Source of the DNA: Candidatus Krumholzibacteriota bacterium
Lineage (GTDB): Bacteria > Krumholzibacteriota > Krumholzibacteriia > Krumholzibacteriales > Krumholzibacteriaceae
Direction of reading: 5' to 3'
Length of the DNA: 64,000 nucleotides
NCBI GenBank assembly: GCA_016932415.1
Contig: JAFGCX010000011.1
Location: forward strand, 124,001-188,000
Shown here: in pieces, positions 49,033 through 63,961 of the stretch
Layout of the letters: each line of letters begins with the position of its first letter
Numbering within the stretch: position 1 is the first letter of the stretch
Program-made: the position numbers and the translations under genes
The notes under the pieces: generated by a model
Told to the model about the DNA's origin: nothing
Database searches by the model: none
Seen by the model: the letters and a program-made list of their open reading frames with translations, nothing else

Positions 49033-49692
49033 TTGAAAGAAAGATATTTCACTCAGGAAAATATTAACGAGGTCTCCGCGAAGATGATCGCCGGGCTCGG
49101 GATGGACGGGACAAAGAGGCGACAGACATTTTCTCCGACTGCGTCGGCACTTTTGATTCTCGACATGCAAAGGTATTTTCTCGACAGTGATTCACACGCG
49201 GCGATCCCGTCGATGCGGGATATAATCCCCTCGATCGCTTCGCTCGCCTCTGCCTTCTCGTCGATAGGGCGGCCGGTCGTAATGACAAGGCACCTTAATA
49301 CAGACGAGAACGCCGCGATGATGGGGCGCTGGTGGAGCGACCTGATCAGGGAAGAAGACGAAAAAAGCAGGATCGTTCCCGAGCTTTCGTTCTCATACGC
49401 CGATATCATCGTAAAGACCCAATATAATGCCTTCTACGCGACGGAGCTTGAAGAGTTTCTCCGGAGGGCAGGCGTGGAGCAGCTCGTCATGACGGGCGTG
49501 ATGACGCATCTCTGTTTGGAGAGTACGGCAAGAGCGGCTTTTGTAAGGGGATTTGAGACCTTTGTCCCGGCAGATTCCACGGCGACATACAACAGGGAGC
49601 TTCACGAAGGGTCGCTGAGAGGCCTGGCGCATGGATTCGCGGTCCCGGTCCTTTCCGCCGATATTACCGGAGCGATCGAAGATGCGCGCTGA
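49033..49692 (+). CDS. isochorismatase-family cysteine hydrolase
   Basis: A 219-residue hydrolase with the Asp-Lys-Cys triad: Asp in 'LLILDMQRYFL', Lys in 'IIVKTQYNAFYAT' and Cys in 'VMTHLCLESTARAAF'. The family includes N-carbamoylsarcosine amidase, nicotinamidase and isochorismatase. In a methyl-transfer cluster an amidase acting on an N-methylated compound is a reasonable guess, no more. It starts with TTG behind GGAG and overlaps the next gene by 11 bases. Confidence 0.88.
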   Translation: MKERYFTQENINEVSAKMIAGLGMDGTKRRQTFSPTASALLILDMQRYFLDSDSHAAIPSMRDIIPSIASLASAFSSIGRPVVMTRHLNTDENAAMMGRWWSDLIREEDEKSRIVPELSFSYADIIVKTQYNAFYATELEEFLRRAGVEQLVMTGVMTHLCLESTARAAFVRGFETFVPADSTATYNRELHEGSLRGLAHGFAVPVLSADITGAIEDAR

Positions 49693-50575
49693 CCCTCTGA
49701 AGACTGTCATCATCGTCGGCGCGGGACCCGCCGGTATCGCCGCCGCGGTGCAGCTCGGCAGGTACGGGATCGACACGATTATCTTCGAAAAGGAAAAAGC
49801 GGGAGGTCTGGCGAGAGAGGCGAACCTGGTCGAGAACTATCCGGGATTTCCAGGCGGTATCGAAGGGAGCTCTCTGGCAGACCTCTTCGAGCGGCACCTT
49901 GAAAACGCAAAAGCCCGGGTGATCTTGCAGGAGGTGAAGTCCCTGGAATATACCGGCGGCCGTTTCGTGGCGGAGACAGGTAACGGAAGACATGAAGCGG
50001 GGATAGCCATAGCTGCTTCGGGCACGGAGGCACTGTTTCCAGAGGGGATAGAAATATCTCCCGGCGCGGAGGGTTCGGTATCCACCGGGCTTTCAACGCT
50101 CTTACGTTCGACAGGTAAAAGGATCGCCATAATCGGGTCGGGAGACGCGGCGTTCGATTACGCGCTTAATCTTTCCAGGCATAACGAAATAGAGATACTG
50201 ATGCGTGGCCGGGATCCAAAAGCGCTTCCCCTCCTTGTTGAAAGGGTCCACAGGCAGCGAGGGATAAAGGTGACGGGGGAGTTCGACGTGGAGAAGGTCG
50301 GAAAGGCCGGGCAAGCCTTGAGTATAATGGCCCGGGGGGAAGGATCGGTGCGCGAAAGCATCGAGGCGGACCATCTCCTATTTGCCATCGGGAGGGAACC
50401 GGCGACAGGCTATTTTGGCAGAGAACTCTCCAGGAATATCGATTTGCTTTTGGGTGAGCGTATCCTGTATCTTGCCGGGGACGTCAGGAACGGGCCTTTC
50501 AGGCAGGCAGCGATAGCGGCAGGAGACGGGATAAGAGCGGCAATGGAGATAGAGAGGAAGATCGCCGGACGATGA
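49682..50575 (+). CDS. thioredoxin-reductase-like FAD/NAD(P) oxidoreductase without redox Cys pair
   Basis: A 297-residue two-domain flavoprotein. FAD-binding 'VIIVGAGPAGIAAAVQLGRYG', NAD(P)-binding 'RIAIIGSGDAAFDYALNLSR' and the C-terminal FAD motif 'ILYLAGDVRNGPFRQAAIAA' match the thioredoxin reductase fold, but the CxxC disulfide of true reductases is missing. It could serve as a ferredoxin- or flavodoxin-type electron supplier, for example for the corrinoid activation protein or the radical SAM enzyme next door; this is inference. It overlaps both neighbours. Confidence 0.88.
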   Translation: MRADPLKTVIIVGAGPAGIAAAVQLGRYGIDTIIFEKEKAGGLAREANLVENYPGFPGGIEGSSLADLFERHLENAKARVILQEVKSLEYTGGRFVAETGNGRHEAGIAIAASGTEALFPEGIEISPGAEGSVSTGLSTLLRSTGKRIAIIGSGDAAFDYALNLSRHNEIEILMRGRDPKALPLLVERVHRQRGIKVTGEFDVEKVGKAGQALSIMARGEGSVRESIEADHLLFAIGREPATGYFGRELSRNIDLLLGERILYLAGDVRNGPFRQAAIAAGDGIRAAMEIERKIAGR

Positions 50576-51510
50576 TAAAGGTAAAAGCGAAAGCGGGAGA
50601 CGAAAAGATAGCAACGGTATACATAGCGGAGACGCAGGCCGGCAGCATGATCGAGTTTGTAGAATCGGTACAGCCTCCCATCCCGAGAGAAAGAAAATGG
50701 GTCCTTATCATCTCGACTCTGCATGGCTGCCCCGCCGGGTGCAGATTCTGCGACGCGGGAAGAACGTACGAGGGAAAGCTGTCCGCCGGCGAGATGCTCG
50801 GACAGGTAGATTACATGGTCAGGGCGCGATACCCCGATCTGAAGGTCCCGGCGGAAAAATTCAAGGTGCAGTTTGCCAGGATGGGAGAACCTTCGTATAA
50901 CGAAGATGTCCTTGATGCGCTTGAGAAACTGCCGCTCGTCTGCGACGCGCCAGGATTGATCCCCTCACTTTCAACGATAGCCCCCGCGGGGACGGAAAAA
51001 TTCTTCGAGCGTCTCCTTGAGATCAAGAAAAGGCTCTATCCGAAGAACTTCCAGCTGCAGTTCTCGATCCACACGACTGACTCCGAAAAACGCGACTGGC
51101 TTATCCCCGTCAAAAAGCAACAGTTCGCGCAGTTAGGGGAATACGGAGACAGGTTCTATGATGAAGGTGGAAGAAAGATCACGCTCAATTTCGCGCTAGC
51201 CGAAGGGATGCCTCTTGATCCGGGCGTACTTCTCGGGCACTTTCACCCCGGCCGGTATATCATTAAGATGACTCCTGTCAATCCGACCTGCCAGGCCGGC
51301 AGGAACGGAGTAAAATCACGTATTATGCCTGATGAGAAAAGGTGTGATGTCGCGAAACCTCTTGAAGCAGCCGGGTACGAGGTGATCCTGAGCATGGGCG
51401 AACTGGAAGAGAACCAGATCGGAAGCAACTGCGGTCAGTATATAAAGAGCTATCTGGAAGAACCCGGAACATTCGACGCCGGGTACAGCTATTCCCTGCG
51501 GGAGATCTGA
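50572..51510 (+). CDS. RlmN-like radical SAM protein of unknown target
   Basis: A 312-residue radical SAM enzyme. The cluster motif Cx3Cx2C is 'HGCPAGCRFCDAG' (Cys53, 57, 60); 'QFARMGEPSYNEDVL' matches the 'GMGEPLxN' segment of RlmN/Cfr, and 'IGSNCGQYIKS' (Cys287) matches the methyl-carrying C-terminal Cys of RlmN. The first RlmN Cys, seven residues before the cluster, is Ile here, and the protein is shorter than RlmN. It overlaps the flavoprotein gene by 4 bases (ATGA) and ends the operon at a strong terminator. Confidence 0.85.
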   Translation: MIKVKAKAGDEKIATVYIAETQAGSMIEFVESVQPPIPRERKWVLIISTLHGCPAGCRFCDAGRTYEGKLSAGEMLGQVDYMVRARYPDLKVPAEKFKVQFARMGEPSYNEDVLDALEKLPLVCDAPGLIPSLSTIAPAGTEKFFERLLEIKKRLYPKNFQLQFSIHTTDSEKRDWLIPVKKQQFAQLGEYGDRFYDEGGRKITLNFALAEGMPLDPGVLLGHFHPGRYIIKMTPVNPTCQAGRNGVKSRIMPDEKRCDVAKPLEAAGYEVILSMGELEENQIGSNCGQYIKSYLEEPGTFDAGYSYSLREI

Positions 51511-56079: not shown

Positions 56080-57129
56080 ATGAAGGATATTCGAAAACTG
56101 GCAATGGCACTGGCGCTGTTTTCCCTGCTGGCCGGCGTAGCGCTTACGGCGACGGCGCAGGCAACGGATTCGCCTATGTTCTTTGTCAGGGAAAAAACTG
56201 TCGATCTCGGCAACTTCTATGAAGGGCTCGACATCGCATATGACTTTACGGTCAGAAACAACGGGGTAGGTGAGCTGCACATAACAAGCGTGCGGCCTGG
56301 GTGAGGCTGCTCAGTGGCCGACTATGACAAGGTCATCCTTCCCGGGCAGGAAGGGAAAATAGGAATAAAGATCACAGGATTCAAAATTCACCCCGGGCGT
56401 TTCAAGAAGTCTTTCACGGTCGCGACGAACGATCCCGAGAACCAGAAGGTAGTCCTCTATGTGACCGGAGTGGTAAAGAAGGTCTTCGAGTTCTCGAAGA
56501 GCCTCAACCTTTCCGGATTCGCGGGGGAAAAGCTTGAACTTGAATCGATCATCTCGATACAGCTTCCCGAAGCGATCGCCTTCACCGGGTGGCACTGGTC
56601 GGAAAAGAGCAGGGATTACGATTTTCTCTGCGACAATCTCGGCATCGATATGTTGACCATGGAAGCGGGAAAAAGATTCAGCCTCAAGGTCTGGACCAGA
56701 GGAGAGGTGAAGCCGGGTAACTACGGCGGTGACCTTATCCTCGAAACCGATTTCAAGGATATTCCCGAAAAGAGCGTGATGTTCCGGCTGACGATAACGC
56801 CTGATGTCCAGGCTACGCCGAGCAACGTGATAATGAAAGAGATGAGGATCGCTGAAGGCACTACGAAGAATTTTGAAAAGATAGTGTCAGTGATCGCGAC
56901 GAGGGGAGATACTCTCAGGATCCTCGAAGTCATTCCTGACAGGGAGGATATCACGGTCAACGTGAGGGAGACCCGCCCGGGAAAAGCGTTCAGCTGCGTG
57001 GTAAGTATCCGCCCGCCCGCGGAATCGGGAAAATACCAGGGCTCGGTGACATTTGTCACCAATTACAAGGGATACGAGAGAATTACAGTGCCGATAACGG
57101 GAATGGTCAGGTCAGTTCCGGAGAATTAA
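56080..57129 (+). CDS. candidate selenoprotein: exported DUF1573-domain protein with in-frame TGA at codon 75
   Basis: Read through one TGA (56302-56304), the frame encodes 349 residues. An N-terminal signal ('LALFSLLAGVALTATAQA') is followed by a DUF1573/Ig-like domain: 'REKTVDLGNFYEGLDIAY', 'NNGVGELHITSVRPG', then TGA, then 'GCSVADYDKVILPGQEGKI'. DUF1573 proteins have a conserved Cys-Gly-Cys here, so the TGA takes the place of the first Cys (Sec75-Gly76-Cys77). The frame is identical on both sides and stays open for 825 bases after the TGA. Two further Ig-like modules fill the C-terminus ('HPGRFKKSFTVATNDPE', 'SVTFVTNYKGYERITVPI'). The alternative is a nonsense mutation or sequencing error. 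A TlpA-like thioredoxin follows. Confidence 0.7.
56302..56336 (+). promoter_or_regulatory. candidate bacterial SECIS element after the TGA
   Basis: Starting 20 bases after the TGA, ATGAC (56324-56328) pairs with GTCAT (56332-56336) around AAG; a further inner G/C region (GGC...GCC at 56305-56319) precedes it. The apical loop lies about 25 bases from the TGA, inside the spacing usual for bacterial SECIS hairpins, and carries the G/GGU-like sequence that SelB recognises. The stem is short, so this is suggestive only. Confidence 0.4.
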
Positions 57130-57211: not shown

Positions 57212-58135
57212 ATGAAGACAAAAAGAATATTGGCGGCTTTTCTGGTGGCCCTGGCTATCATGCCGGCATTCGCCGCGGGCCAGGACAGGGAAGAAGAGGC
57301 GAGGAATCAATATGCCGCGATGATGCAGGAATTCGAGCAGAAAAGATCATCTCTCGGGCAGATGCAGCTGATCGAACTGGCAGAGAAGAATCTCACCATG
57401 TTCATCGAAAAATTTGATGGAACTGTCGCTTCGGGCAGCGCCCGGGTCGTTCTGGGGCAGATATTCAGCGGGACCGGAAGGGAGAAGGAAGCGGTAGAAC
57501 ACCTCGTCAGATACCTTGCCGCGCCGTTCGAAAAACAGCCGGTGGAAGAGGGCGTGGCAAGGCAGATCCTTGCTACCGCCTATATGTCGATGAATAAATT
57601 CGATGAGGCGGAGGAACAGTTGAAGGCGATCATCGATCCGGCAAGCGGAGCCGATCCCAGAACGAAGCAGATGGCAAACGCGACTCTTCCAAAGATGGAG
57701 ATCCTCAGGAAGCTGAAGATCGGCAACAAGGCGATCGATTTTTCAGTTACTGCCGCTGACGGAAAAAAACTTGATCTGCAGCAGTACAGGGGAAAAGTAG
57801 TCCTTATAGATTTCTGGGCTTCCTGGTGCGCGCCGTGCAGGGCGGAGATGCCGACGGTCAAAAAGGTATACAGCGAGAACAAGGGGAAGGGTTTCGATAT
57901 TATTGGGATCTCAATGGATGACAGCAGGGAAAAGTTCGACAGTTACGTCAAGGAACAGCAGATCGAATGGCGGCAGGTCTTTGACGGAAAAGGGTGGCAG
58001 GCCGAGTTGGGATTAAAATACGCGGTCGGTTCGATCCCTTCGACTTTTCTTGTCGATCGCGCCGGAGTGATCAGGTATAAGAATCTCCGCGGGAATGAAC
58101 TCGGGGAAGCGGTCGCCGAACTGCTTGCCGAGTAG
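57212..58135 (+). CDS. exported TlpA/ResA-like thioredoxin with N-terminal helical repeat domain
   Basis: A 307-residue periplasmic thiol-disulfide protein. After the signal peptide ('ILAAFLVALAIMPAFAAG') come helices of the TPR kind (about 25-165, 'QLIELAEKNLTMFIEKF', 'QILATAYMSMNKFDEAEEQL'), then a TlpA-type thioredoxin domain with the active site 'WASWCAPCRAEMPTV' (Cys206, Cys209) and cis-Pro in 'GSIPSTFLVDR'. Proteins of this sort reduce or isomerise disulfides in periplasmic partners, for example cytochromes c. Its position directly after the candidate Sec-containing DUF1573 protein suggests a redox pair. AAAGGA precedes the start by 8 bases; the upstream terminator overlaps the leader. 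Confidence 0.92.
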   Translation: MKTKRILAAFLVALAIMPAFAAGQDREEEARNQYAAMMQEFEQKRSSLGQMQLIELAEKNLTMFIEKFDGTVASGSARVVLGQIFSGTGREKEAVEHLVRYLAAPFEKQPVEEGVARQILATAYMSMNKFDEAEEQLKAIIDPASGADPRTKQMANATLPKMEILRKLKIGNKAIDFSVTAADGKKLDLQQYRGKVVLIDFWASWCAPCRAEMPTVKKVYSENKGKGFDIIGISMDDSREKFDSYVKEQQIEWRQVFDGKGWQAELGLKYAVGSIPSTFLVDRAGVIRYKNLRGNELGEAVAELLAE

Positions 58136-58383: not shown

Positions 58384-59433
58384 ATGAGATTCATTGATTC
58401 GACTGATTTTGAGAGGCTTTTAAAAAAGCTCTCTGCAGAGGGGGAGCTTGTTGTTCCTGTCAGGGAAGAAGATACAGGAAAAATCCATATACAGAGAGTA
58501 GAAGCATTTCCGCTTCCGGCAGGCACCGCTTTCGATGGATTCAGATCTGTCGAAAGCCTTAAAGGGTTCGCGCAACACCTCAGGTCTGTTGTCGCCAGGT
58601 ATCCTTCCGAAGATATGGATCAGATGGAAGCCGAAGAATCGTTCCCGGTATTCGTGATCGTCGGTGCCAGGGGATGCGACCTCAAAGCTATGGAACTTGT
58701 CGACAGCGTCCAGGTGGAAGGCGATTATACAGACCCATTCTACAAGATCAGAAGGGACAGGATGCTGGTAATAGCCTCAGACTGCACGGAGTGCGGCGAG
58801 AGCTGTTTCTGTACTCTGACCGGATCCAACCCATGGCCCGAAAAAGGTTATGACCTTACTATCTCGAAAGTCGGAAGCGGATACCTCGTAGAGGAAGGTT
58901 CGGAAAGAGGAGCGGCGATCCTGTCGGAAAACAGCGAGCTCTTTTCAGAACCGAGGGAAGGGCAGGAAAAGGCAAGGGTCGAAAACCGCGAAAAGGTCCT
59001 CGCGCAGCTGAAGTCAAACAACAAGGATTACCCGGCATCGGCCGAGATGACCGAAAAGCTCCGGGGGGTACTGAACGACGAGCTCTGGAACGAAGAGTCG
59101 GCAAGATGCGTGGAGTGCGGCGCGTGCACCAACATATGTCCGACCTGTTATTGTTTTCTCCTCTTCGACCAGCAGGACGGGGAGCAGTTCAAAAGAGTGA
59201 TGTCATGGGATTCCTGCCAGGTAACAGGTTATGCCAGGATGGCGGGCATGGGTACTCCAAGGCCCCGCCTTTCTGACAGGGTCAAGCACAGGCTTTACCA
59301 TAAATATGATTATCTGGTCCTCAGCCATAACGCGGTCTTTTGCACCGGCTGCGGCAGATGTATCGACGCGTGCTCGGCAAGCATAGATATGCGCGATGTG
59401 TTCCGTAAAGTAAAAACGAAAGCAACCAGATAA
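58384..59433 (+). CDS. 4Fe-4S protein, hydrogenase beta-subunit (HydB/AsrA) like
   Basis: A 349-residue iron-sulfur protein of the type found as beta subunit of sulfhydrogenases and as AsrA. Cys motifs in order: 'SDCTECGESCFC', the ferredoxin pattern 'CVECGACTNICPTCYC' and 'CTGCGRCIDACSASI', giving two or three [4Fe-4S] clusters. 'SFPVFVIVGARGCDLKAMEL' is the family N-terminal half. It would pass electrons between the FAD subunit encoded next and the membrane complex. First gene of the operon. Confidence 0.9.
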   Translation: MRFIDSTDFERLLKKLSAEGELVVPVREEDTGKIHIQRVEAFPLPAGTAFDGFRSVESLKGFAQHLRSVVARYPSEDMDQMEAEESFPVFVIVGARGCDLKAMELVDSVQVEGDYTDPFYKIRRDRMLVIASDCTECGESCFCTLTGSNPWPEKGYDLTISKVGSGYLVEEGSERGAAILSENSELFSEPREGQEKARVENREKVLAQLKSNNKDYPASAEMTEKLRGVLNDELWNEESARCVECGACTNICPTCYCFLLFDQQDGEQFKRVMSWDSCQVTGYARMAGMGTPRPRLSDRVKHRLYHKYDYLVLSHNAVFCTGCGRCIDACSASIDMRDVFRKVKTKATR

Positions 59434-59447
59434 GGGAGCGAAAGGGT

Positions 59448-60266
59448 ATGGAAAACCCGTATTATCCCATAGATACTGTCCTGGAAGACGTGATTACCGA
59501 GACTCCGACGATCAGGACTTTCTGCCTGAAGCCAGCCAGGCCGGTTAAATTCAAGGCCGGGCAGTTCATGCAGCTTACAGTTCCCGGTGTCGGAGAAGCG
59601 CCATTCACCCCGAGCAGCGACCCGAATATCGAAGACAGGATGGAGATCACCATCCTCAGGACCGGTAAGGTCACCGAGGCGCTTCATGAGCTTAAGCCTG
59701 GAGCCAGACTCGGCCTGAGAGGTCCTTTCGGCAAGGGGTACCCGCTTGAAAAGCTCGGCGGCAAGGATGTCCTCGTGGTCGGTGGTGGGGTGGGGCTTGC
59801 TCCGATGCGCTCGCTGCTCTACGCCCTTTTCAACGATCCCTCGAAATACAACAGGATTGATATCAAGTTCGGGGCAAGGGAGCCGGCCGAACTGAGTTTC
59901 CGCAGGCAGTACAAGGAATGGAGCAGTCTTGCTTCGAACATCTCGTTAAAAACAACGATCGATATTCCTCATCCCGACTGGGACGGGCATGTCGGACTGG
60001 TCACGACTCTTCTTGATGACCTCGAGGTAAAGATCGCCGACTCGTTCGCCCTTTCATGCGGCCCCGAGATAATGTTGAAGTTCGTAACCCTGAAACTTCT
60101 GGAAGTGGGATATACTCCACCACAGATCTATCTTTCGATGAACAGGAAGATGTCATGCGGTATGGGAAAATGCGGTCGCTGTAATGTCGGGCATTACTAT
60201 CTTTGCGTCGATGGCCCCGACATGTGTTACGAGAAGATCAAGAACGTACCTAATGTCTTTGGCTAG
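59448..60266 (+). CDS. FAD/NAD(P)-binding oxidoreductase, hydrogenase gamma-subunit (HydG/AsrB) like
   Basis: A 272-residue ferredoxin-NADP reductase-type subunit. FAD-binding 'KAGQFMQLTVPGVGEAPFT', NAD(P)-binding 'VLVVGGGVGLAPMRSLLYAL', 'LSCGPEIMLKFVTLKLLE' and a C-terminal [2Fe-2S] motif 'MSCGMGKCGRCNVGHYYLC' are present. With the HydB-like subunit it forms the module that connects NAD(P)H to iron-sulfur clusters in sulfhydrogenases. Starts 14 bases after the previous stop with GGGAG. Confidence 0.92.
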   Translation: MENPYYPIDTVLEDVITETPTIRTFCLKPARPVKFKAGQFMQLTVPGVGEAPFTPSSDPNIEDRMEITILRTGKVTEALHELKPGARLGLRGPFGKGYPLEKLGGKDVLVVGGGVGLAPMRSLLYALFNDPSKYNRIDIKFGAREPAELSFRRQYKEWSSLASNISLKTTIDIPHPDWDGHVGLVTTLLDDLEVKIADSFALSCGPEIMLKFVTLKLLEVGYTPPQIYLSMNRKMSCGMGKCGRCNVGHYYLCVDGPDMCYEKIKNVPNVFG

Positions 60267-60320
60267 TATGCCGCGGTTGGGCGCTCTCGGCGGAGAAGCC
60301 GCCCGGGAAGAAAATGGTCT

Positions 60321-62108
60321 ATGAGTGAGATAAACAATTATTGTTCGATCTGTTCGCTGGCCTGTCCCGTTATTTTCAGGGGTGGAAGCAGGTCGCCTTC
60401 CTTCACAAGAGATTCGATCCTGTCGATAGACTGGGACGACAGGGAAGGTTCGAAGTATGGCGGCAGTCTTTGCGCGCGCGGTAACTCCGCGGTCGAATTC
60501 GTCTCCCATCCGAAAAGACTGAACTATCCGTTCGTCCTCGGGAAAAGGTCGAATTTCGAGGCGGCGGTAAAGGAGACTGCCAAAAACCTTGCTTCGATCA
60601 AGGCTGAATCCGGAGCGGGGAGCATAGGTGTCCTTATAGGGGAGAACCTGACCAACGAAGAAGCCGCTCTCGCGCTGAAATTCGCGAAAGATGTCATTGG
60701 TACTTCCAGTATAGAGATCTTTGCTCCTGACGATACGCCTCTCTTCTCGGCATATCTCGATTGCGATTTTTCCGCCCTGTCGACGACGGCCGAAAAACCG
60801 GCGGGCACTAAAAGTGTCTATCTGATGATCGGTGATTCCTTTTCCGACCATCCGTGTACGGCAAAAACGGTCCTGGCCGGAAAGAACTCGGGCAGGGGTA
60901 ACGAGATCATAGTAATAAGTCCGGAACTCAATCACACGGCGTGGTTTGCAGGCACACACCTTATGTGCAATCCCGGCGGAGAGACTGCTGTAGTGGCGGG
61001 ATTGTTGAAAGCTGCGGCGGCAAAAAGCGCCAACCCGCTTGTCCCCGCGCTGAAAAGCATTATTGACGGTATCGAATGGGGAGATATAGAAAAACTCGGC
61101 GGAATAGAAAGAAAGATCGTCGAAAAAGCGGCATTTTCGATTCTCGGATCTGCGAAAATCGAGACTTACATGTCGAACATATTCGGAAGATTCTCCTCCC
61201 CTGGGCTGCTTTCTCTCTTTGCCGAGGCTCTTACGAGCATCTGCCCCGGAGAGAAACTCTTCGACCCGCAGTTTGTCCAGCAGAATACCTGGGGTATCTA
61301 TTCGGTCCTGGCTGGAGCGGGATGCGGAACGGTCCTGGGGAAACTTGAAAGCAGCGATATCGAGGCTCTTGTGATCCTGGGGCTCGATCTTTTCTCTGTA
61401 TATCCCGCGGCTCCGGTGGAAAAAGCGCTCAGGGAGAAGAAGTTCACCGTAGCCACGCAGCTCTTCTGGGGACAGACCGCCGCGCGTTCAAACGTAGTCA
61501 TACCGGCGGCGGGACTGATGGAGAAAAAAGGAACGGTCTCGCCATCGTTCAGGGATGATCTAGTACGGAAGGAAGCGATCGATCCGCCGGCGGGGGCTTT
61601 TTCTGATGAGGAATTTCTCAGGGCGCTCGCCAGGGAGATGGGAGCCGATCTCGGTTCGGCCGATGTCAGAAGAAAGACTGAAAGATCAGGGTCGTGCGAA
61701 GGGCTTGCCGCGAGATGGACCTCCTATTCGAATTCGCTCCGGGCGAACGGATCTTCCCAGGCAGTGCTGCTACCGTGGAGCGAGCCGGTCCATGCAGCCG
61801 ATGGAGCGATCACCAGGCATCTTCACTGGTCCAGGGTGACATCACCCGGACCGAAGCTTCTTGTCTCGAAAGAGGCTGCCGCTGAACTCGGGCTTGCGGG
61901 AGGAGAAAAAGTCAAAGTCTCCTCCGATGGCGGAGAAGAAGTATTTAAAACGGAAGTCACCGAAAGACTCAGGGGCAAAACAGTTGCCGCTTCGATACAT
62001 TTTCCTTCGGTCCGAAAGCTGTTTCCGTGGAAACTCGATGAAAAATCTGAATGCGTGATCCTTGCGCCGGTTCCCGTCAACCTTGAGCGTCAGAGCGAGA
62101 AGAGCTGA
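60321..62108 (+). CDS. molybdopterin oxidoreductase-fold subunit (NuoG/FdhA-like)
   Basis: A 595-residue protein of the molybdopterin-binding superfamily. The N-terminal [4Fe-4S] motif is 'CSICSLACPVIF' plus 'SLCARGNSAVEF'; the middle ('IGVLIGENLTNEEAALALKF', 'QLFWGQTAARSNVVIPAAGL', 'EKKGTVSPSFRDDLVRKEA') and the C-terminal MopB-like barrel ('PKLLVSKEAAAELGLAGGEK') fit the family. It is shorter than FdhF and the position of the catalytic Cys/Sec of formate dehydrogenases reads 'APDDTPLF', so it may be an electron-transfer subunit as in NuoG rather than a formate dehydrogenase. Confidence 0.85.
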   Translation: MSEINNYCSICSLACPVIFRGGSRSPSFTRDSILSIDWDDREGSKYGGSLCARGNSAVEFVSHPKRLNYPFVLGKRSNFEAAVKETAKNLASIKAESGAGSIGVLIGENLTNEEAALALKFAKDVIGTSSIEIFAPDDTPLFSAYLDCDFSALSTTAEKPAGTKSVYLMIGDSFSDHPCTAKTVLAGKNSGRGNEIIVISPELNHTAWFAGTHLMCNPGGETAVVAGLLKAAAAKSANPLVPALKSIIDGIEWGDIEKLGGIERKIVEKAAFSILGSAKIETYMSNIFGRFSSPGLLSLFAEALTSICPGEKLFDPQFVQQNTWGIYSVLAGAGCGTVLGKLESSDIEALVILGLDLFSVYPAAPVEKALREKKFTVATQLFWGQTAARSNVVIPAAGLMEKKGTVSPSFRDDLVRKEAIDPPAGAFSDEEFLRALAREMGADLGSADVRRKTERSGSCEGLAARWTSYSNSLRANGSSQAVLLPWSEPVHAADGAITRHLHWSRVTSPGPKLLVSKEAAAELGLAGGEKVKVSSDGGEEVFKTEVTERLRGKTVAASIHFPSVRKLFPWKLDEKSECVILAPVPVNLERQSEKS

Positions 62109-62110
62109 TT

Positions 62111-62590
62111 ATGGAAAAAAGAATCTATATAAACATGAACCTGTGTACCGGATGCAGAGCATGCGCCGCTGCGTGCGCCGGAGGGCATGACGAACAGGGG
62201 CTTCTAAAGCACGGACCGGTCGAGGAGTCCGCGCTCATGCCTCTGCATTGCCGCCACTGCGATACGCCTCTTTGTCTTGAAGTCTGTCCACAGGACGCGA
62301 TCAAGAAGGAAGAGGACGGAACGATCGTAAGAAAGAACCAGCTGTGCATCGGGTGTAAATCATGTATCATGGCCTGTCCGTTCGGAGTGATGTTCGTCTA
62401 CAGCACCTGGCACATCTCTCCGAAATGCGATCTCTGCCAGGATCGACTCAAGGAAGATAAGCAGCCAAGGTGCGTTTCTACATGTACTTCCGGAGCGCTT
62501 GTCTTCGAGGAACTTACAGAGTTGGAGAAAAAACACGGAAATGCCACTGAGGGCGGACGCTACTTCACCCGATGGATGTTGACGCGTTAG
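62111..62590 (+). CDS. HycB-like polyferredoxin (4Fe-4S) subunit
   Basis: A 159-residue protein with four Cys-rich cluster motifs of the DmsB/HycB type: 'CTGCRACAAACAGGH', 'CRHCDTPLCLEVCPQDAI', 'CIGCKSCIMACPFGVM' and 'CDLCQDRLKEDKQPRCVSTC'. It transfers electrons between the molybdopterin-fold or HydB/HydG subunits and the membrane complex. It starts 2 bases after the previous stop. Confidence 0.93.
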   Translation: MEKRIYINMNLCTGCRACAAACAGGHDEQGLLKHGPVEESALMPLHCRHCDTPLCLEVCPQDAIKKEEDGTIVRKNQLCIGCKSCIMACPFGVMFVYSTWHISPKCDLCQDRLKEDKQPRCVSTCTSGALVFEELTELEKKHGNATEGGRYFTRWMLTR

Positions 62591-62602
62591 CGGAGAGGAC
62601 CT

Positions 62603-63532
62603 ATGGATTTAAAGTATCTGTTCTATTATCTGATATTCCCCGGATTTCTCTTTACCGGGGTGGTCGGGCTGTTGACTACCTGGGTAGACAGAAAAGTGAC
62701 AGCAAGGGTCCACTGGAGAGTAGGCCCCCCGTGGTTTCAGCCTTTTGCCGATACGATGAAGCTTTTTGGCAAGGAAGTGATCATCCCGGCCGGCGCGAAA
62801 AAGACGGGATTTCTCATCATGCCGGTTATCGGCCTGGCAGCAGCGACGCTCGCCTCTACGATAATATGGCTGGCGAATCTCGATCCGTCGGGTTCGTTCG
62901 TCGGGGATTCGATAGTCGTTCTTTATATAATGACTATCCCCGCGATAGCGATGATCCTTGGGGCGAGCGCTTCGGGCAACCCCCTCGGTATCCTCGGTGG
63001 AAGCCGGGAGATGAAACTTCTTTTCGCGTATGAACTGCCCCTTGTGATCTCGATGCTGACGACGGTCTACAAAGCTGGCAGTTTTTCGTTTGAACAGATA
63101 CTGGCGAAACAGGCGGCATCGGGGATCATGCTGGGGAGCGTATCGGGAGTCATAGCCTTCATAGTGACTATAATGTGCGTGCAGGCGAAACTCACATTCA
63201 TCCCGTTTGATATTCCCGAAGCCGAGACGGAGCTGGCCGGCGGGACTCACATCGAGTATTCAGGCGCACCGCTGGCGATCGTAAAACTGAACACGGCGAT
63301 CATGTTCTTCGTTCTTCCAATATTCATGATAACACTCTACTGGGGTGGGATTTCACTGGCGGGGTGGGGAATCCTGACCTCGATACTGAAATACGTCGCT
63401 ATCGTGGTCATTATAGTTCTTATAAAGAATACAAATCCAAGGGTCAGGATCGATCAGGCCCTGCGTTTTTTCTGGGGACCGATGCTTGTACTCTCTATAA
63501 TAGCCATGATCCTGGCTGTGCTCGGTTACTAG
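62603..63532 (+). CDS. NuoH/HycD-like membrane subunit of group 4 hydrogenase or complex I-like enzyme
   Basis: A 309-residue integral membrane protein with eight hydrophobic segments. The first loop 'WVDRKVTARVHWRVGPPWFQ' and the conserved acidic loop 'FDIPEAETELAGGTHIEYSG' match NuoH/HycD and line the quinone- or proton-coupling cavity. 'LFAYELPLVISMLTTVYKAG' is a middle segment. It links electron flow to ion movement. AGAGGA precedes the ATG. Confidence 0.94.
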   Translation: MDLKYLFYYLIFPGFLFTGVVGLLTTWVDRKVTARVHWRVGPPWFQPFADTMKLFGKEVIIPAGAKKTGFLIMPVIGLAAATLASTIIWLANLDPSGSFVGDSIVVLYIMTIPAIAMILGASASGNPLGILGGSREMKLLFAYELPLVISMLTTVYKAGSFSFEQILAKQAASGIMLGSVSGVIAFIVTIMCVQAKLTFIPFDIPEAETELAGGTHIEYSGAPLAIVKLNTAIMFFVLPIFMITLYWGGISLAGWGILTSILKYVAIVVIIVLIKNTNPRVRIDQALRFFWGPMLVLSIIAMILAVLGY

Positions 63533-63547
63533 GTCGCGGAGGAAAGT

Positions 63548-63961
63548 ATGTCACTGGCTTTGAAAGCTTTAAAAAAATCACCCTGGGTATTTCACGTAAA
63601 TACCGGTGCCTGCAATAACTGCGACATAGAGATCCTGGATGCCCTTACTCCAAGATTCGACGTTGAACGGTTTGGAATAGTGCTTGTCGGCAGCATCAGG
63701 CACGCCGACGTGCTTCTTATAAGCGGTCCGGTAACGAGAAACGTACTCCCCAGGCTCAAAAGACTTTATGAACAGGCTCCCAAGCCGGTCAAGGTCATAG
63801 TGGTCGGGGCCTGCGGTTGTAATTGCGGCATTTTCAGAGACGGATACAACATTATCGGCCCTGTTGACAAATATCTGCCGGTCGATGCTTATGTCCCCGG
63901 ATGCCCTCCGAAACCGGAGACGATCATTGCCGGAGTAGTAAAAGTACTTAACACACTATAG
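63548..63961 (+). CDS. NuoB/HycG-like [4Fe-4S] subunit
   Basis: A 137-residue small subunit carrying the proximal (N2-type) cluster. Ligand Cys are seen in 'GACNNCDIEILDAL', 'VVGACGCNCGIFRDGY' and 'YVPGCPPKPETIIAG'. It matches the small subunit of group 4 [NiFe] hydrogenases and NuoB. GGAGGAAAGT precedes the ATG. The large subunit (NuoD/HycE), the Mrp-like antiporter subunits and any NiFe-maturation genes are expected to the right of the window. Confidence 0.94.
   Translation: MSLALKALKKSPWVFHVNTGACNNCDIEILDALTPRFDVERFGIVLVGSIRHADVLLISGPVTRNVLPRLKRLYEQAPKPVKVIVVGACGCNCGIFRDGYNIIGPVDKYLPVDAYVPGCPPKPETIIAGVVKVLNTL

Follow-up and report, generated by a model that had tools for sequence, protein, structure and literature searches.

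An in-frame UGA in a DUF1573 gene of Krumholzibacteriota is very probably a selenocysteine codon and lies beside a gene for a TlpA-type thioredoxin

A gene for a DUF1573 protein in a 64,000-nucleotide stretch of DNA from a Krumholzibacteriota bacterium (hereafter, the window) is interrupted by one TGA, raising the question of whether that codon ends the protein or is read as selenocysteine (Sec). DUF1573 proteins are widespread; we know of no function for them. The gene (56080..57129, + strand) runs from ATG at 56080 to TAA at 57127-57129, and the sole break in its frame is the TGA at 56302-56304, codon 75, in the run CGG CCT GGG TGA GGC TGC TCA GTG. From TGA to TAA, 825 bases form an open frame, and the product is 349 residues long when read through, including the putative Sec75. 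The Pfam DUF1573 model (PF07610) matches residues 37 to 132, on both sides of the TGA, with 66.7 bits (gathering score, 26.1). The TGA falls on the family's first Cys of Cys-Gly-Cys, and site comparison across relatives assigns it to the first position of a U-G-C motif; the second Cys of the motif, Cys77 (TGC, 56308..56310, + strand), is invariant in 19 and in 34 aligned sequences. The frame, its length, and the position of the TGA are thus as the first-pass annotation had described them. That annotation had also held that UGA is a normal stop elsewhere in the window, and genes at 49631-50575, 50572-51510, and 60321-62108 do end in TGA, which excludes reassignment of the code. The window holds 69 TGAs with at least 60 open codons on both sides; 12 other leading ones were rejected as Sec sites, since their frames, read by eye, resemble noncoding or antisense frames.

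The protein is predicted to be exported: it begins with a signal peptide-like stretch (judged by eye), followed by Ig-like domains. An AlphaFold2 model is all-beta and confident (mean pLDDT, 92.9), with U75-G-C77 placed between strands 66-73 and 78-82. A Foldseek search against the PDB returned Ig-like domains of ciliary proteins (the majority), adhesins, and cadherins; these are structural proteins matched at low TM-scores, and the search gave no functional lead.

We compared codon 75 across relatives. Orthologues at 39 to 70% identity are full-length with a single TGA at the same codon, and in distant relatives, at about 24 to 31% identity, the match holds one stop, again TGA at the codon 75 equivalent. 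Within the class (Krumholzibacteriota), the codon is always TGA in 26 UGC genes from 25 genomes; six UGC genes from outside the class (two from Desulfobacterales, one from a Deltaproteobacterium, one from CSSED10-310, and two from other genomes) all have TGA as well. Where a related gene has a stop at this position, it is TGA in every case (33 genes), a pattern not due to chance; neither TAA nor TAG was seen there among the related genes compared. Paralogues in tandem arrays (L036, L038, L155, and L157) and relatives from Acidobacteriota and Bacteroidota have TGC or TGT at the site. The search for orthologues accordingly found TGA or Cys at the site with conservation on both sides, and no random stops or decay. 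This comparison shows Sec and Cys to be equivalent at the position. The tree places the genus g2 Cys paralogues within the Sec clade, so their Cys is secondary to Sec. The tandem arrays comprise two or three DUF1573 genes, in which Sec and Cys forms are mixed or Cys forms occur alone. No relatives were found on plasmids. A DUF1573-like gene from another family of the class (L162:2270-3412, genome G037) has one in-frame TGA in the motif GGUACP, that is, UAC rather than UGC, and possibly represents a variant Sec site.

We searched the genome (assembly of 3.11 Mb, 95.5% complete) for the Sec machinery, and every component that Sec decoding requires (selA, selB, selC, and selD) is present. SelB, with winged-helix and beta-barrel SelB domains, is encoded on the same contig as the DUF1573 gene (350.5 bits). 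SelA scored 490.4 bits, and two SelD genes scored 377.6 and 337.1 bits; all four scores are over the respective cut-offs. One of the SelD genes (L016:1396-2451) has an in-frame UGA of its own, in the motif CLGUASKLDP. The other (L015:289-2556, G000 C10) lies behind a NifS-like cysteine desulfurase domain in a fusion of 755 amino acids (judged by eye), and Cys occupies the position of the Sec. A gene for tRNA-Sec (anticodon UCA) was detected at L006:1494-1580 (G000 C36; 53.8 bits). The 3′ side of this gene is cut by the contig end, and ARAGORN gives no report. Of 80 genomes of the class, 73 have a SelB match over the cut-off.

The sequence after the UGA is constrained at both the protein and the RNA level. 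For six pairs, dN/dS was 0.09 to 0.18 after the UGA versus 0.15 to 0.24 before it; purifying selection is stronger downstream than upstream, which rules out gene decay. Synonymous identity over the eight codons +4 to +11 was 87%, compared with a gene mean of 48%, and this is the top eight-codon window of the gene. Codons +9 to +11 (AAG GTC ATC) are invariant and codons +6 to +8 are relaxed, a pattern that fits a stem with a variable loop. The corresponding candidate SECIS hairpin (56314..56336, + strand) starts 9 nt after the UGA, spans 10 to 32 nt downstream, and pairs GUGGCC with GGUCAU around an 11-nt loop; synonymous identity is 92 to 100% in its arms, and the loop is relaxed. In the alignment 96.7% of cells are paired, with no compensatory changes, and L022, the nearest relative, has a weakened form of the hairpin. 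A second candidate hairpin (56337..56354, + strand; CCUUCC, loop CGGGCA, GGAAGG) lies 33 to 50 nt after the UGA, has G's at the head of its loop, and shows compensatory changes in two pairs (C-G/U-A and U-A/G-C). Over codons +4 to +11, the six aligned Cys paralogues, a small number of sequences, have lower synonymous identity, except in the middle.

The published model of the bacterial SECIS has a loop of 3 to 9 nt, a stem of 4 to 16 bp, G in the first two loop positions, and a distance of 16 to 37 nt from the UGA (PMC13188914). The first hairpin has a loop of 11 nt and a spacing of 15 nt; the second has a loop of 6 nt and a spacing of 38 nt, one over the limit. Each candidate hairpin thus departs from the model by little, in at least one limit. 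The first-pass annotation had proposed one hairpin 20 to 35 bases downstream. Two hairpins are supported close by, so that position was approximate, and energy-based folding of the single sequence placed the region after the UGA no better than shuffled sequences (z = +1.1). Taken together, the alignments indicate a clear RNA-level constraint just after the UGA.

Since the genome has full Sec machinery, the site is restricted to TGA or Cys codons, purifying selection extends downstream, and the RNA after the UGA is constrained, we consider it nearly certain, on comparative grounds, that UGA 75 is decoded as selenocysteine. The cell's own SelA, SelB, SelD, and tRNA-Sec would decode it in an exported Ig-like DUF1573 protein, and a conserved element in the RNA immediately downstream would guide insertion.

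Two other origins of the TGA have to be weighed against decoding as Sec. A one-base change from TGC or TGT would suffice to create it, whether by sequencing error or in a decaying pseudogene, and the first-pass annotation had allowed for such an error. The same TGA, however, recurs in separate assemblies of 25 genomes of the class and in several genomes outside it, and purifying selection persists beyond it; orthologues and dN/dS rule this origin out, leaving it a negligible chance. Alternatively, translation could stop at the UGA and restart, by coupling, at GTG 56314, yielding two proteins. This GTG lies 9 nt past the UGA with GAGG 7 nt upstream and a purine-rich stretch before it, and 24 of the 33 related genes have GTG at the equivalent position. 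In the other nine, however, the codon is GCG, GCA, GTA, ACG, ACT, or GCC, and this loss of the start codon excludes restart as a general mechanism. Moreover, a single Ig-like domain spans the UGA, the Cys paralogues encode the same frame as one protein, and a split gene would have no need of TGA in particular, whereas TAA and TAG never occur. We regard restart as very improbable.

What the Sec residue does is suggested by the next gene. A TlpA/ResA-type thioredoxin with a WCAPC motif, exported, is encoded at 57212..58135 (+ strand), as the first-pass annotation had noted, and its adjacency makes it our proposed redox partner. Of the 27 genomes with enough contig beyond the Sec gene to tell, the window genome included, 26 have a TlpA-type gene downstream on the same strand; G042 is the sole exception, with no adjacent TlpA gene, and in G047 the distance is about 1.2 kb. 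In family f1 a wider order is also kept, with NadA, NifU, and NifS genes divergent and hydrogenase-like subunits downstream. In family f7 the TlpA gene remains, and the other neighbors seen in family f1 were not detected. At L163 in G136, genes for a DsbD/CcdA transmembrane protein, TlpA, a rhodanese, and MauE form a run that includes the Sec gene. From the TlpA adjacency and the G136 context, we infer an extracytoplasmic redox relay. Further along the window, 58384-63961 encodes sulfhydrogenase/sulfite reductase beta- and gamma-like subunits, an Fdh/NuoG-like protein, a ferredoxin, NuoH, and NuoB; the order of the first three of these genes is kept in many family f1 genomes.

In such a relay, Sec75-Gly-Cys77 would form a selenylsulfide/selenolate redox center outside the cytoplasm, which the TlpA-like thioredoxin may reduce (or oxidize). 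It is gene order and Sec/Cys exchange that point to the redox role and the pairing, and we lean toward the thioredoxin as the partner of the Sec protein. Set against this is the reading that Sec is inserted into a motif that mainly binds a metal or a substrate, with TlpA a mere neighbor through conserved gene order. The best PDB matches of the Ig-like fold are structural (mostly cilia) proteins, and the hydrogenase-like and NifS/NifU/NadA genes of family f1 are likewise syntenic. As is well established, however, Sec takes the place of Cys mainly at redox-active sites (PMC1794560); moreover, TlpA persists in family f7, where those other neighbors were not detected, and L163 offers a CcdA-TlpA context. 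We consider this second reading rather unlikely. Returning to the redox relay, a broader proposal, which we put forward tentatively, is that an exported Ig-like Sec-Gly-Cys protein and a TlpA-type thioredoxin form a conserved two-gene unit in several Krumholzibacteriota families. The unit would act as an electron relay outside the cytoplasm, based on selenium and dedicated to that task; its genes would have undergone tandem duplication and switches from Sec to Cys, and its RNA signal fits none of the standard bacterial SECIS limits exactly. The presence of Sec at the first Cys of CGC, kept across several families of the class, and the pairing with a thioredoxin indicate that this Cys does the work and suggest what to assay for DUF1573 proteins.

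The first-pass annotation had suggested a possible new selenoprotein family, and this did not hold. A 2008 survey listed OS_HP2 (pfam07610, motif UxC; PMC2398784), a 2022 review listed a "DUF1573 domain-containing protein, pfam07610, UGC," citing a 2007 study of an Olavius symbiont (PMC9312934), and a 2026 review lists the DUF1573 UGC selenoprotein again (PMC13188914). The NCBIfam model NF041425, "OS_HP2 family (seleno)protein," is the best match of the window protein (E = 1e-24; 86.7 bits). As this score is under the curated cut-off of 100, the gene could escape automatic annotation, and we assign it to the broader kind defined by PF07610 and UGC instead of the curated NCBI model. Scores of relatives that have this TGA range from 81 to 136; the Krumholzibacteriota relatives scanned score 89 to 107, most of them under the cut-off (L042, L066, and L068 pass), and one Desulfobacterales copy scores 135.5. 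The threshold thus misses a lineage, whose genes of this kind may be recorded as truncated. In the literature searched, a single paper mentions both the phylum and selenocysteine, and there the phylum occurs only in the title of a reference; this has no bearing on the literature beyond. New here are the occurrence of the OS_HP2 kind in Krumholzibacteriota, the adjacency to TlpA, and the derivation of Cys copies from Sec copies.

By sequence, then, the window protein is a somewhat divergent member of the described OS_HP2/DUF1573 UGC selenoproteins. It shares with OS_HP2 and NF041425 the Pfam domain, the U-G-C motif, and the Sec position, and every A1 member matches NF041425; it differs in its score under the cut-off, in Ig-like domains beyond the modeled one, and in the adjoining TlpA gene. 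Cys-form DUF1573 proteins of Bacteroidota and Acidobacteriota have the same domain and a CGC motif, but with TGC or TGT at the site; synonymous constraint after the site is weaker in the few Cys paralogues aligned. The TlpA-family UGC selenoprotein (NF041054; PMC13188914) likewise has UGC and is of the thiol-disulfide redox type. There, Sec lies within the thioredoxin-like protein itself, whereas here the thioredoxin has a plain WCAPC motif and the Sec is in its neighbor.
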